Positions 48,729 to 56,145 of a stretch of DNA of 64,000 nucleotides are shown here, in pieces. How positions within the stretch are numbered: position 1 is the first letter of the stretch; each line of letters opens with the position of its first letter. The stretch is from NCBI RefSeq assembly GCF_008329945.1, contig NZ_CP035807.1:992001-1056000 (forward strand), read 5' to 3'. Position numbers and translations under genes: made by a program. The notes under the pieces were generated by a model. It saw only the letters and a list, made by a program, of their open reading frames with translations, was not told the origin of the DNA and did no database searches. The DNA is from Thiospirochaeta perfilievii. GTDB taxonomy: Bacteria; Spirochaetota; Spirochaetia; DSM-2461.

Positions 48729-49291
48729 ATGATTAAAATGGTAGTGTTTTTAGGTAATTATGGTAACCAATATCGTAATACAAGACACAATGTTGGTTGG
48801 TTATTTGAAGAATACCTAAACAGATCCACACAAAAAATGACAAAATTTAAAGCTGAATATTATAAAGAGAGTAACATTGTCTATCTACTACCCCAAACAC
48901 TAATGAATAGATCAGGGGAGTCTGTTGTAAAGGCGATCTCTTTTTTAAGATAAATATAGATGAAGTTTTAGTAGTACACGATGATCTAGAGACTGAGTTT
49001 GGGTCCATAAAAATAAAGCACGGTGGTGGTTTAGCTGGTCATAATGGGCTAAGGTCAATAAAAGATTTAACGGGGAGTAGTAATTTTAAACGGCTGGCCA
49101 TTGGAATATCAAGACCAAGCCGGGGTTCTGTGGCAAATTATGTTCTAGAGCGATTTACCCCCCAGGAAGAGTCTGAATTAGACATTATTTTTAAAGAAAC
49201 AGAAAATTATTTCACTAAATTCCTAGGTGATGATGATGAAACAAAGGGTAAAAAAGTAGTAATATTACAGCAAGGAAGGGAAAAGAGATGA
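48729..49291 (+). CDS. pth: Peptidyl-tRNA hydrolase, apparent frameshift
   Basis: Pth releases tRNA from stalled peptidyl-tRNA and is generally essential. The first frame (NYGNQYRNTRHNVGWLFEE, catalytic His; LPQTLMNRSGESV) stops at 48953. The rest (VLVVHDDLETEFGSIKIKHG, GGLAGHNGLRSI) follows in the -1 frame to 49291. One extra T in the T6 run at 48941-48946 gives a standard 187-residue enzyme. The zero frame reads T TTT TTA there, a classical -1 slippery heptamer. AGGAG precedes the ATG. The end overlaps mtn by 4 bp. Confidence 0.88.
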
Positions 49292-49989: not shown

Positions 49990-50463
49990 ATGGAAAAAAT
50001 ACCAAGTTTTACTGTAGACCATACAAAACTACTGTGTGGGGTATATGTTTCTAGACAGGATAGAGTTGGAAGTGAAGTTGTTACTACCTTTGATATAAGA
50101 ATGAAGAGACCAAATATGGAACCAGTAATTGATGTTCCAGCCCTTCATACAATTGAACACTTAGGTGCTACTTTTTTAAGAAATAATACAGAATGGAAGG
50201 ATAGAGTTATATATTTTGGACCAATGGGGTGTAGAACTGGAAACTATCTTATTTTAAAAGGGGACTTAAAACCTATGGATATTAAACCCCTATTAATTGA
50301 ACTATATAGTTTTATGGCAGATTACCAAGGGGATATTCCTGGAGCAACTGCTAAGGATTGTGGGAATTACCAATCTATGGACCTTAATATGGGTAAATAT
50401 GAGTCAAAACTCTTTCTAGAGGTACTAAATTCTTTAAATAGTCAAAATACTATTTACCCCTAA
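49990..50463 (+). CDS. luxS: S-ribosylhomocysteine lyase LuxS
   Basis: This metalloenzyme cleaves S-ribosylhomocysteine to homocysteine and DPD, the precursor of autoinducer-2. It has 157 residues. Metal ligands His53 and His57 (HTIEH) and Cys124 (AKDCGNY) and the catalytic Cys81 (GPMGCRTG) are all present. It follows mtn with no gap, forming a complete SAH-detoxification (activated methyl cycle) unit with AI-2 as by-product. Confidence 0.98.
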   Translation: MEKIPSFTVDHTKLLCGVYVSRQDRVGSEVVTTFDIRMKRPNMEPVIDVPALHTIEHLGATFLRNNTEWKDRVIYFGPMGCRTGNYLILKGDLKPMDIKPLLIELYSFMADYQGDIPGATAKDCGNYQSMDLNMGKYESKLFLEVLNSLNSQNTIYP

Positions 50464-50487: not shown

Positions 50488-52110
50488 ATGGATATAAAAA
50501 AAAGTTTTCCAATTATCATTAATCTTATTATACTACTATTAACAAGCAGCTGTTTTTTAGGTAATAACAGTGATGTATTAGTTGTTAAAACAATAACCGT
50601 TAATAGTAGTTTATTACCAAAATCTGACAGTTCAAATGCCTACCTTCTATTAACAAACCCTACAAGTAGGAATATTTTAATACCAGAAGTAACTATAAAT
50701 AGTCAGAGTCGAAGCCTTATAACAACCAGAAATAGTTATCCTTATCCAATTACTCCCACTACAACTCTACCTAGAAGGTTGGATAAACCTCCACGGACAA
50801 GGGAAAACAGTATAGATATCTCTAATAGAACAAGGGATATTAATCCCCAAGATAGTTATAGCCAGGGGGATTTAGAGTCCTTTTTTGTTCTTGTAGGTTC
50901 AGAGGTTGATGAAAACAACAATAGTGTAATGACCTATTCTAATACTACATTTAAGTTAGTTTCCCTTACTAATAAAATAAATAATACAACTATCAACCTA
51001 CATATCTGGGTTGATGTAAAGGATCTGGACATATTAAGTATAGATGCTGTAGAGTTTCTTAAAAGTAATTTCTCTGGGATTTATAATGATATGACAAACT
51101 TATATGGGGATTATTGGGGAGAACATAACTATGAAAATCTTATAGAGAAGGATAATAGTGACTTCCATATTTTATTAATGGATATTGGCTATGATAAAAA
51201 TATTGATAAGGATAACAGAGGGGTTATTTATGGTTATTTTGATAGTTATGATACTTATATAGATAAAGAGGGTTCTAATAAGGCTCTAAATGTGGTCCTT
51301 GACTCCTACCTACTTTTTAATCGGGCAGATAGTAGTAAAGGGTGGAGTGAAGAGAGTATAGAAACCATATATGGTTTATCCACATTTATTCATGAGTTTC
51401 AACACCTAATACATTTCTATCAAAAGAGGATTAAAAATAAAATTACTCTTACTTCAACAAATGACGAGACCTATGTTAATGAGATGTTCTCTATGATAGC
51501 TGAGGATATATTAGCATATAACTATTTAATTGCTTCAGATGAAAGTGATACCTATTTTTTCCCGCCAGACTTACAAAGAATACCAATATATAATCAGGAT
51601 TGGATAGAACACAGTACACTTAATTGGAACTACGATATTTCAAGTTATAGTAGAGCCTATGTTGTAGGAGCATATCTTATTAGAAATTTTGATAGTTTTA
51701 TAAAAGAGTATTTTACAACAGGAACTCTTGGAATTAATGGCTTATTAGAAGCTATTAATAAAAATAGTACCTTCAATATTGATAGAACAACTCTATTACA
51801 AAATCTAGGACTAGCTATTTTATATTCAAGAGAGACAAATACATCTAGACCCCAGCAACTTAACTCAAATAGTTTCTTAGAATACTCAAACTTCAATCTA
51901 ATTCAGTTAGACTTTTTTTCTAACTATATACCATCATTTAAACCCTTAGATGTAGCCCAGATAAAAGATATAGCTAACTCCAATGGGATAAACTTCTACA
52001 AAGAGTCAAATATATATATTAATCTAGGAGAAATTAGTAGTAGTGATACTATTAAAATAGAGTTTGCAAATGATGGAAGTGGAATTGAATATAGATTAGT
52101 ATATTATTAA
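50488..52110 (+). CDS. Secreted zinc-metalloprotease lipoprotein (M30 hyicolysin-like)
   Basis: The 540-residue protein has a signal peptide and lipobox LTSSC (Cys22). The zinc-binding motif HEFQH (His302, Glu303, His306) lies in STFIHEFQHLIHFY, followed by NEMFSMIAED, whose Glu could be the third ligand. This arrangement matches peptidase family M30-like proteins. The N-terminal 150 residues are Ser/Thr/Asn-rich and probably a surface spacer. It is 24 bp downstream of luxS but probably an independent function. Confidence 0.75.
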   Translation: MDIKKSFPIIINLIILLLTSSCFLGNNSDVLVVKTITVNSSLLPKSDSSNAYLLLTNPTSRNILIPEVTINSQSRSLITTRNSYPYPITPTTTLPRRLDKPPRTRENSIDISNRTRDINPQDSYSQGDLESFFVLVGSEVDENNNSVMTYSNTTFKLVSLTNKINNTTINLHIWVDVKDLDILSIDAVEFLKSNFSGIYNDMTNLYGDYWGEHNYENLIEKDNSDFHILLMDIGYDKNIDKDNRGVIYGYFDSYDTYIDKEGSNKALNVVLDSYLLFNRADSSKGWSEESIETIYGLSTFIHEFQHLIHFYQKRIKNKITLTSTNDETYVNEMFSMIAEDILAYNYLIASDESDTYFFPPDLQRIPIYNQDWIEHSTLNWNYDISSYSRAYVVGAYLIRNFDSFIKEYFTTGTLGINGLLEAINKNSTFNIDRTTLLQNLGLAILYSRETNTSRPQQLNSNSFLEYSNFNLIQLDFFSNYIPSFKPLDVAQIKDIANSNGINFYKESNIYINLGEISSSDTIKIEFANDGSGIEYRLVYY

Positions 52111-52160
52111 TGAAAAATAAGTTTATTTGTAATATAGTTAATATATAGAGGAGATGGCTC

Positions 52161-52340
52161 TTGAGTGAAGATATAAATAAAATAAAACATGACTTAAATA
52201 ATTTATTAAATGCAATTATTGGTTCTGCAGAGATTATAAAATTCAGTATAGATGATGACAACGAAAAACTTAAAAAATACACTGGGTTAATATTAGAATC
52301 AGCAACAAAGGCCACAGATATTACAAAGTCTTTAAAATAG
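52161..52340 (+). CDS. Free-standing 59-residue histidine-kinase DHp-like domain
   Basis: This short ORF begins at TTG 52161, with GAGGAG 7 nt upstream. The product contains HDLNNLLNAIIGSAEII, the H-box of HisKA-type kinases (His10), and a second helix ending ILESATKATDITKSL, that is, both helices of a dimerisation/histidine phosphotransfer domain and nothing else. There is no ATPase domain before the TAG at 52338-52340; the convergent response regulator gene ends 3 bp further on. It could be a functional small phosphotransfer/adaptor protein or a kinase remnant. The good RBS and clean boundaries favour real expression. Confidence 0.6.
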   Translation: MSEDINKIKHDLNNLLNAIIGSAEIIKFSIDDDNEKLKKYTGLILESATKATDITKSLK

Positions 52341-52343
52341 ACT

Positions 52344-53144
52344 CTACCTAGTGCTATACTTATTACGAAAATCCTGGGGAGTGCATTTAAAATATCTTTT
52401 AAAAAGTCTGGAGAAGTAGTTTGCATCTATAAAGCCAACTATTGAGGCTATATCCGTAATAGTTAGTTCCATATTATTTATTAAAAGTTTTTTTGATGCA
52501 TCAAATCTTTTTGTAATCAGATACTTATTAAAACCTATGCCGACTTCCTTTTTAAAGGTCTCAGAAAGATAGGACCTGTTCATTAAAACAACATCACTAA
52601 CGTTTTCTAGGGATATCTGATTCTGAAAATTTTCCTCTATAAACATCAAAACTTTCTTAATTTTATCATTTTTAATATAAGAAAAATCCGTTGTTGTTTT
52701 TATAACAAAATCGTACTCCAATCTTTTAACCTGTTTTTCTAAACTCTCTGACCGATTAATCCTTTTATCCCTATTTAATTGTTTAATAGCCTTAGAGATA
52801 GAGTTTTCTAACTCCCCCTCCTCCACAGGTTTTAAAACAAAATCCACAACCCCTAATTTAATAGCCTTTTGGGCGTATTCAAAAATATCATACCCTGAAA
52901 TTATTATAATACGAGTACTGTTAGTAATCTTATTAATTTCACTTATAAGATCTAAACCAGAGATTCCAGGCATTCTAATATCTGTTAAAACAATATTGGG
53001 TTTTTTATCTCTAATTAGCTTTAAACCCTCTTCACCATTTTCTGCTTCACCAACAACTTTTAAGCTAAATTTATCATAGGGTAGAAGTTTTATAATTAGT
53101 TTCCTTATCCATTTCTCATCATCTATTACTACAATTTTAACCAT
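52344..53144 (-). CDS. YesN-type response regulator (receiver + AraC HTH)
   Basis: This 266-residue regulator has a receiver domain (Asp8, Asp9, phospho-acceptor Asp55 in VLTDIRMPG, Lys in VLKPVEEGEL) and a C-terminal AraC/XylS double HTH (ISLENVSDVVLMNRSYLSE; LTITDIASIVGFIDANYFSR). It presumably receives phosphate from the adjacent YesM-type kinase (8-bp overlap) and activates the divergent sugar ABC operon. Confidence 0.95.
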   Translation of the reverse strand: MVKIVVIDDEKWIRKLIIKLLPYDKFSLKVVGEAENGEEGLKLIRDKKPNIVLTDIRMPGISGLDLISEINKITNSTRIIIISGYDIFEYAQKAIKLGVVDFVLKPVEEGELENSISKAIKQLNRDKRINRSESLEKQVKRLEYDFVIKTTTDFSYIKNDKIKKVLMFIEENFQNQISLENVSDVVLMNRSYLSETFKKEVGIGFNKYLITKRFDASKKLLINNMELTITDIASIVGFIDANYFSRLFKRYFKCTPQDFRNKYSTR

Positions 53145-54864
53145 CTAAGTCCCCTGTATATGGAATTTTTATATAGACAGTAGTACCATCCTTGTTACTA
53201 TCGATATCTAGTCCAAAGGGATTTCCATATAGTAGTTTAAGTCTTAAATTAACATTATCTAATCCATGGGCTGATGTAACACTTGAAATATTTGGCTCTT
53301 CCTTTAAGGATTTTTTAAGTTTTAATAGTTTATCAGGTTCTATAAAAGGGCCATTATTATAAACTTCTATTACTAGTATATCTTCTTCTGTTTTTGCTGA
53401 GACCTTTAGTTCTCCTCCATCTGTTGCTAACTCTAGACCGTATTTATATGCATTCTCTATTATTGGTTGGATTATAAACCTAGCAATTTCTATACTTTTT
53501 AGGCCATCGCCTATATTAAATGTAGTTGTAATTCTATCTCCAAATCGAAACTCTTGAATTTTAAGATAGTCTTTTAAATACTCTATCTCTACTCCTAGTT
53601 TGTTTGTCTCTTTAAGATTTCCCACATTGTATCGAAATAGTCTAGATAGGGATAAGGTCATTGAAGAGATATCCTCATTATCATTTTCTAGAGCAATACT
53701 TCTAATAACATCTAAAGTATTATATAAAAAGTGTGGGTTAATTTTTGCCTGAAGAGCTTGAAATTTTGCCTCTGTTGCCTCCCCTTCTTTTTTAACAACA
53801 ACATCAATTAAAGAGTCTACTTCATCAACCATTTTTTTGAATCTTTCAATTAAATAGTCAAGCTCATAATAGTTAGTTGATGGGTAACTAGGGGAAAAAT
53901 TCCCCTGCCCTACCTTTTTCATTGATATATAGAGCTCATGTAGGGGAGAAGTTATAGCTCTAGAAAATAGAATAGCTATAATAAGACTAACAACAGCGAT
54001 AAGAAAAATAGTGATAATTGTAACCAATATTGCAGAGTTAACTCTAATAAAAAACTGATCCTGTCTAATAAACCCAATAAGTTCTAACTGACTATCCACA
54101 ATACTCTTTTTTACAATTATATCCTTTGGCCTATTAGATATATATTTAGAATAGATTTCATTTTGTAGAAGTTTTTCATTATTCTTTCTATATAATAGGT
54201 ACATTGGAATCTGTTCAGCATTTTCTGATGAATCAATAAAATTTTGAAAGGCTGACATATCTATATCTATCTGTATTATTACCTTATCTCCATTTTTTTC
54301 AGGGAGAGTAAACTGCTGAATGTAGGAAATAACACGATCATAATCATCCCTCTCTAGAGCTACATTGTAATTGGCGCTATGCACCTTTGTAAAATACTCA
54401 TTTTTTGCTAAATCACTACTGTTTTTAAGCCAAGGTCTATCTAATAGCAGGTTATCCCTAATACCTAACCTAGAACTAATAACATACTGTTTATCAAAAA
54501 TAACATAGATCCCATTTATATTTGAACTGGCATTATCTGTTATATATAGATACTCTATAAGATCCTTAAGTTTAGATATTTCGTTTTTATTAAAGTTATC
54601 ACTATTATCAAAAATAATGTAATCGGATATAACTTTACCTATTGTAGCCCTCTGTATCATTTTTATATTTGAAAAGATATTTATAAGGTTATTACTTGAT
54701 TGGGTTACTATCGCTTCTTGATAATCCTTAACATCCTTATCAATAATATTTTTAACATTATATATAAAAACAAATGAAATTAGAGTAAATGGTATAAGAA
54801 TAGATAGAATAATTAGTGCTAATAAGTCCTTTCGAATTGTTCTATATGAATTAATTTTTCTCAA
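53137..54864 (-). CDS. YesM-type sensor histidine kinase
   Basis: This 575-residue membrane kinase has TM1 (about 15-37), a roughly 230-residue extracytoplasmic Cache-like sensor, TM2 (about 280-302), HAMP, and the His_kinase family region with phospho-His in LQAKINPHFLYNTLDVIRS. The ATPase domain contains FIIQPIIENAYKYGLE and SAHGLDNVNLRL. It lies between its cognate regulator and a binding-protein gene, both overlapping, so the three form one operon. Confidence 0.95.
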   Translation of the reverse strand: MRKINSYRTIRKDLLALIILSILIPFTLISFVFIYNVKNIIDKDVKDYQEAIVTQSSNNLINIFSNIKMIQRATIGKVISDYIIFDNSDNFNKNEISKLKDLIEYLYITDNASSNINGIYVIFDKQYVISSRLGIRDNLLLDRPWLKNSSDLAKNEYFTKVHSANYNVALERDDYDRVISYIQQFTLPEKNGDKVIIQIDIDMSAFQNFIDSSENAEQIPMYLLYRKNNEKLLQNEIYSKYISNRPKDIIVKKSIVDSQLELIGFIRQDQFFIRVNSAILVTIITIFLIAVVSLIIAILFSRAITSPLHELYISMKKVGQGNFSPSYPSTNYYELDYLIERFKKMVDEVDSLIDVVVKKEGEATEAKFQALQAKINPHFLYNTLDVIRSIALENDNEDISSMTLSLSRLFRYNVGNLKETNKLGVEIEYLKDYLKIQEFRFGDRITTTFNIGDGLKSIEIARFIIQPIIENAYKYGLELATDGGELKVSAKTEEDILVIEVYNNGPFIEPDKLLKLKKSLKEEPNISSVTSAHGLDNVNLRLKLLYGNPFGLDIDSNKDGTTVYIKIPYTGDLDG

Positions 54865-56145
54865 CTACCCTACCCATAACATTTTGAACCATATCCATAA
54901 ATTCATCCCTACTAAGAGCACCACTCCATAAAAGATCATTTGCCTCTTTAAACTGGTTAAATGCCCCTAATGAGTTAAAATAAAATTCGTGAAGATCATA
55001 AATTTCACTATTTTTTATATAATTTGCAGATTTTATATATATTGGTTTATCAATTATACTAATATCCATCTTTTTAGCTGGAAATGACCCAGACTCTCTA
55101 TACCGTGCAATAAAAACTTCATCAGAAAATATCCAATCAATAAGCTTTATTATTGCCTCTCTTTTACTTAAATCAGCCCAGGCTTTTTTGCTAATACAGA
55201 TGCTTTGGGAGACTCCTCCAATAGTAAAATTTCTAGTATCAATAGACTCATCACTTATTCTAGGTATTGGAATTATTACTGTATCTTTAGCTACATCATC
55301 ATTAAACCTTGCTAGACTCCAGGTAAAAGCAAAAATTATAGCTGCCTTTCTATTATTATATAGATCAACCTGCCTATCAAAGGAGCCTTCGTAGATTGTA
55401 TTATTTGGAATTACCCTATTTTTTCTTAACTCTAAAATAGCATCTACAGCCTTAAGTGTTCCAGGATTTTCAAACTTATTGTTAAGTTTCATATCCTTTG
55501 CATCTCTATATCCATTAGGATCTTGGTAGGAGAGTGCACTAAAAAAAAGATGTCCTGGATCCCCCTAAAGCTTCCCATGGAAAAGGGTGTTATACCATTT
55601 TTATTTAATATAGGTGATATCTCTTTTAAGTCATTAAAAGTTTTTGGTATATCTAAATTATACTCATCGAAAATTGACTGATTCAGTGCCATAAATCCAT
55701 AAAAGGACTCATGGGGTAAGGCGTAATTTATACCATCAACCTTAGTTGCATCTAAAAACCTGGGAATAAAGTCCTCCCTACTATATTTAGTAGAGGCTTC
55801 TAAGTACTCATCCATATTTAAAAGAAATCCATTATCTGCTAGATATCTAAGATTAGTTTCATAACTCCAGAAGCAAAAAACATCTGGTACAGAGTTTGAA
55901 GATGCATCTATTAGAATTTTCTCCTTATGGTTTAACCCTAGGTTCTCCTCTGTTTTAATTATAAATTCATTTTTAACTGAGTCTGAGAACTCTTTTAGAT
56001 TATTTTTAAATCCATACTCCCATGAATAGGCCATGGTTATTACTGGAAGCTCTCTATTAGACTCGATAATCTCCCTATTACTTCCACAGAAGATAGTATT
56101 TGAGAAGATAATAAAAACTAAAATAAATTCTAACTGTTTTTTCAT
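54851..56145 (-). CDS. ABC-type solute-binding lipoprotein, apparent frameshift
   Basis: This sugar-type extracellular binding protein (lipobox NTIFC, Cys20) occurs in two frames: 56145 to about 55489, and then 55492 to 54851. Adding one T (minus strand) to the T8 run (plus-strand A8 at 55541-55548) gives a continuous protein of 431 residues, the usual family length. The zero frame reads TTT TTT TTA, containing T TTT TTA. It overlaps the kinase gene. Being co-transcribed with YesMN and not with permeases, it may act as a ligand-sensing accessory to the kinase; this is inference. Confidence 0.82.

Follow-up and report, generated by a model that had tools for sequence, protein, structure and literature searches.

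A 59-residue open reading frame (the small ORF) at positions 52161–52340 (+) of the 64-kb window, which is the whole stretch of DNA analysed here, encodes a HisKA/DHp hairpin and appears to be a histidine kinase gene that was cut short by a rearrangement and is likely still translatable, a reading to which we give a probability of roughly 55%. A truncated kinase gene was favoured because the small ORF has no short homologue, lies at a junction in gene order and abruptly loses the conserved block before its histidine. A second reading, a selected free-standing DHp mini-protein, was kept because the translation signals and codon use are intact.

Sequence, coding signals and predicted fold

The small ORF, identified from the sequence, Pfam, codon use and AF2, runs from a TTG start to a TAG stop. 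A Shine–Dalgarno-like GAGGAG (52148–52153, +) is located 7 nt 5' of the TTG, and an in-frame TAG at 52146–52148 lies immediately 5' of the start region. The encoded 59-residue product is MSEDINKIKHDLNNLLNAIIGSAEIIKFSIDDDNEKLKKYTGLILESATKATDITKSLK. Its H-box, HDLNN, is formed by residues 10–14 (codons 52188–52202, +) and contains the putative phospho-acceptor His10 followed by Asp11, Asn13 and Asn14, that is, the acidic residue at H+1 and the T/N at H+4 of HisKA domains.

Residues 7–58 were matched to positions 8–57 of the 66 in the Pfam HisKA profile (PF00512) with 30.1 bits and E = 5e-7, above the gathering cut-off of 26.9 bits. The AF2 model of the monomer, built from 28 aligned DHp domains, predicted helices at residues 2–29 and 35–56 with a mean pLDDT of 95, consistent with the two-helix hairpin of HisKA, and the product may form a dimeric four-helix bundle. 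The top PDB fold matches of this model in Foldseek were mostly kinase DHp regions with TMq of about 0.7–0.8 and E-values above 0.3, which are too weak alone, as expected for a hairpin. The DHp group profile matched histidine kinase 5idj, which we take to be CckA, at 1.1e-10; its match to LvrB (8vc9), a kinase of Leptospira, was at 8e-5. The small ORF lacks the HATPase_c/CA domain of a histidine kinase, and it also lacks a degenerate CA domain of the Spo0B/ChpT kind, since it stops after helix 2. These results agree with the first-pass annotation, which had described a well-formed TTG-start ORF with GAGGAG that encodes only a DHp domain, in coordinates, Shine–Dalgarno match and HisKA assignment. 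Its claim that both helices are encoded stands for the modelled hairpin with HDLNN, but not for the full length of helix 1, which has only 9 residues N-terminal to the His and is missing the usual N-terminal part of a DHp domain.

A codon-usage score trained on the 44 long genes of the window was 0.32 for the small ORF, compared with a median of 0.25 for the long genes (n = 44) and a maximum of 0.24 for shadow ORFs (n = 65). Shine–Dalgarno matches of at least 5 nt were observed in 15 of the 44 long genes vs 1 of the 65 shadow ORFs, and among AT-rich sequences simulated for comparison, 1.4% had a start with such a match no more than 10 codons from a random junction. The small ORF is thus very unlikely to be a chance frame, as its HisKA match, gene-like codon use and Shine–Dalgarno sequence are all intact, and it is likely still translatable. 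It is probably translated, with a folded DHp hairpin as its product. An RNA element was rejected as an alternative to a protein because an Rfam search at the small ORF gave no match. No convincing terminator was found 3' of the small ORF.

Several of these observations speak against a mere truncation, namely the H-box and core positions that are intact without a stop or frameshift, the gene-like codon use, and the low chance of acquiring a start with such a Shine–Dalgarno sequence. The second reading is a mini-protein maintained by selection and expressed from the luxS-M30 transcript, a four-helix-bundle homodimer with a Spo0B-like function that would serve as a phosphatase or phosphate sink for a response regulator. 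Its H, D (H+1) and N (H+4) are intact, its Shine–Dalgarno sequence is good, its codons are gene-like and its model has a pLDDT of 95. We consider such a mini-protein possible but less probable than a truncated gene, since no short homologue was found in any of the searches, the ORF is located at a junction, no cognate regulator was identified, and the shortening of helix 1 before the His may weaken the bundle.

An apparently lineage-specific junction

The small ORF is located downstream of mtnN-like, luxS (49990–50463, Pfam PF02664) and M30 peptidase genes, all on the + strand. Directly 5' of it is the M30-like peptidase gene (50488–52110, PF10460 at 1.3e-7), whose product has a lipoprotein-like N terminus. 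On the other side, a convergent gene for a YesN/AraC-type response regulator (52344–53144, −; ORF list and Pfam) ends 3 nt beyond the stop of the small ORF, followed by a gene for a sensor kinase of the His_kinase class (PF06580; 53137–54864, −), which is likely the partner of the YesN-type regulator and belongs to another kinase class. The first-pass annotation had placed the small ORF beside a YesN-type regulator; the two genes do adjoin, but they are convergent and so do not belong to the same operon. Since this regulator has its own PF06580-type kinase of a different class, the adjacency is weak evidence for a functional link.

Between 52110 and 52161, several stops close each of the three upstream frames. 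With these stops on one side and the regulator coding region 3 nt downstream on the other, a frameshift into a hidden or deleted ATPase domain, a concern raised in the first-pass annotation, was ruled out, as there is no room for such a domain before the regulator gene. The same arrangement bears on whether the small ORF is a chance ORF or an assembly artefact. Single-base homopolymer frameshifts do occur nearby: pth (peptidyl-tRNA hydrolase, 48729–49291, +) is split at a T6 run, and in the solute-binding protein gene (54851–56145, −) a frameshift near a GGGG run leaves two ORFs. Because pth is an essential gene in the bacteria known so far, its split probably reflects an error in sequencing or assembly, and other homopolymer indels are therefore to be expected in this genome. 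The solute-binding protein gene is intact in the same block of three other genomes (G002, G014 and G016). An indel correction at the small ORF, however, cannot yield a full kinase, and a HisKA match of 5e-7, paralogue matches down to 1.7e-7 and a coding score above those of all shadow ORFs make chance or artefact very improbable.

We found that gene order is broken on both flanks. In a same-genus genome (G001), luxS-M30 is kept and is then followed by a convergent GGDEF gene overlapping the M30 end; in G002, luxS is followed by the start of a similar lipoprotein gene and then the contig end. Orthologues of the regulator/kinase/solute-binding block were found in G002, G014 and G016, with a mnh-type antiporter operon, a glycoside hydrolase gene and a different gene, respectively, as the 3' neighbour of the YesN-type regulator. 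As judged from the compared genomes, which include two same-genus genomes that are 71% and 81% complete, the small ORF appears to occupy a lineage-specific junction, and a position where order is broken on both flanks is one where gene fragments are expected. A full-length kinase at the same place in relatives, the observation that the first-pass annotation had named as pointing to a truncation remnant, was not found, the relatives examined carrying other genes there.

The small ORF most likely derives from the gene of a histidine kinase of the hybrid type (HDxNN, CckA-like) that was cut when the luxS-M30 block and the YesN/kinase/solute-binding block became joined through a rearrangement. In the simplest history, this gene would have encoded a DHp-CA kinase lacking a sensor and would already have carried its own start and ribosome site; a single deletion reaching as far as the 3' end of the regulator gene would have taken away the ATPase part, and the stop codon would have arisen at the deletion joint.

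Comparisons with kinases and the search for short homologues

Comparisons with kinases showed that the similarity of the small ORF starts at His10 and stops at Leu58, one residue before the stop codon, where the full kinases that were followed further read on through LLxFSR towards the ATPase domain. Of the 19 conserved columns from His10 onward the small ORF retains 12, which is low for the family and a point against a selected mini-protein. Before His10 it retains none of 7, and the LAGGIA block that is near-invariant in relatives is missing. In favour of a mini-protein, the retained residues of helix 1 are those C-terminal to the His, on the helix with the main regulator contact, and the part lost is LAGGIA before the His. 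A more specific proposal, in which a DHp-only 59-residue protein from the luxS-M30 transcript evolved by the loss of all of a kinase but its regulator-facing half and serves as a free response-regulator phosphatase or sink, is tentative and in our judgement rather unlikely.

The nearest relative is about 50% identical, which excludes a very recent fragment of any kinase known here. DHp domains of full kinases of the same genome matched with E-values of 1.7e-7 to 1.4e-5 and 37–43% identity, and since the best paralogues reach only about 37–45% identity, a recent copy of one of its own kinases was rejected. The small ORF is the only complete HisKA match over the cut-off in a frame of fewer than 229 residues in this genome. 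Weighing against truncation, no close source kinase was found, and inspection of HATPase loci in the genome that are unpaired or lie in short frames gave no remnant of the ATPase half. Candidates for a detached ATPase half at C1:1431620, 1171307, 1173522 and 777640 were other proteins, apparently a YesM-type kinase in two pieces and free-standing ATPases that are RsbW-like or CBS-associated. Elsewhere in the genome, locus L062 (G000:C1:1430500-1433000, 870–2499, −) carries an apparently broken YesM/YesN-type pair, with the kinase split into two ORFs, a regulator of only 80 residues and an adjoining transposase-like gene.

Short homologues in relatives, which the first-pass annotation had suggested looking for, were not found among the matches listed in 26 family, 395 class and 393 phylum genomes (together about 570 different genomes). 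All listed matches fall in long kinase frames, the shortest of which, at 216 residues, is one part of a membrane kinase that is broken into two frames. At 106 loci in public genome and viral contigs, all kinase frames had at least 220 residues; the peptide-pattern searches need an exact motif, and the pattern used demands GxAHD, which is absent from the small ORF itself. One kinase locus, L127, has just 28 residues before the start of the match, a point in favour of the truncation reading. With no orthologous short ORF in the genomes or public loci searched, the small ORF does not belong to a conserved small-protein family. A mobile or phage origin was rejected: a phage search gave no match, viral contigs show only long frames, and the plasmid matches fall in kinase-like genes from other phyla. 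Our literature search for DHp-only proteins returned nothing specific.

These searches also bear on the roles suggested in the first-pass annotation, a phosphotransfer adaptor or a dominant-negative partner of full kinases. Neither gained support, as no short homologue was found in relatives and the junction differs in every relative examined. Four full HDFNN kinases (L002–L005) are encoded in the same genome, and the product of the small ORF could in principle heterodimerize with such HDxNN kinases or serve their ATPase domains as a substrate for phosphorylation in trans. Split EnvZ domains offer a precedent, for in work by Park et al. in 1998 the separated domains reportedly could reconstitute a kinase. 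With 37–45% identity to these paralogues, however, a matching interface is doubtful; helix 1 lacks its portion N-terminal to the His, and no partner of the same class is co-localised, so we regard a heterodimer partner as improbable.

Possible activity and relation to known systems

Without an ATP-binding domain, the protein of the small ORF cannot autophosphorylate. One study reports that the DHp domain of EnvZ and NtrB suffices by itself for phosphatase activity, that its expression in vivo results in a constitutive phosphatase phenotype, and that a conserved T/N residue is required for the phosphatase activity of HisKA domains (PMC3510030). This residue corresponds to Asn14 in the small ORF. 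By analogy, the activity left over would be dephosphorylation of a receiver domain, or phosphate exchange with it, via His10 and Asn14. Should the small ORF yield a protein, its likeliest effect would be to act on a receiver domain as a phosphatase or phosphate sink.

The small ORF is most similar to the HisKA DHp of HDFNN hybrid kinases (5idj, LvrB 8vc9), with which it shares two antiparallel helices, the HDxNN H-box and core positions; it differs in having no sensor, CA domain, receiver or LAGGIA block and only 59 residues in total. Spo0B and ChpT are dimeric DHp-like hairpins that pass phosphate and are not kinases. Both are longer and conserved and retain a degenerate CA-like domain, whereas the small ORF shares the hairpin but is shorter, not conserved and without a CA-like domain. 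Sda also has a helical-hairpin shape but is to our knowledge not a DHp homologue, and it has no H-box, unlike the small ORF. Sda is a small protein acting on a histidine kinase (PMC12189002), and the passages on ChpT present it as a histidine phosphotransferase (PMC3433190). With the isolated EnvZ and NtrB domains, which in passages of the study cited above act as phosphatases without CA, the small ORF shares a DHp domain alone with His and the T/N at H+4. Those constructs, however, were engineered from known kinases whose regulator is known, whereas the small ORF is natural.

Kinase genes that are incomplete are commonly regarded as debris, and the evidence here favours an ordinary gene fragment. 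If the small ORF were instead a natural DHp-only phosphatase, kinase decay could leave working regulators behind, and what was seen in the laboratory with DHp fragments of EnvZ and NtrB would become relevant to natural genomes.
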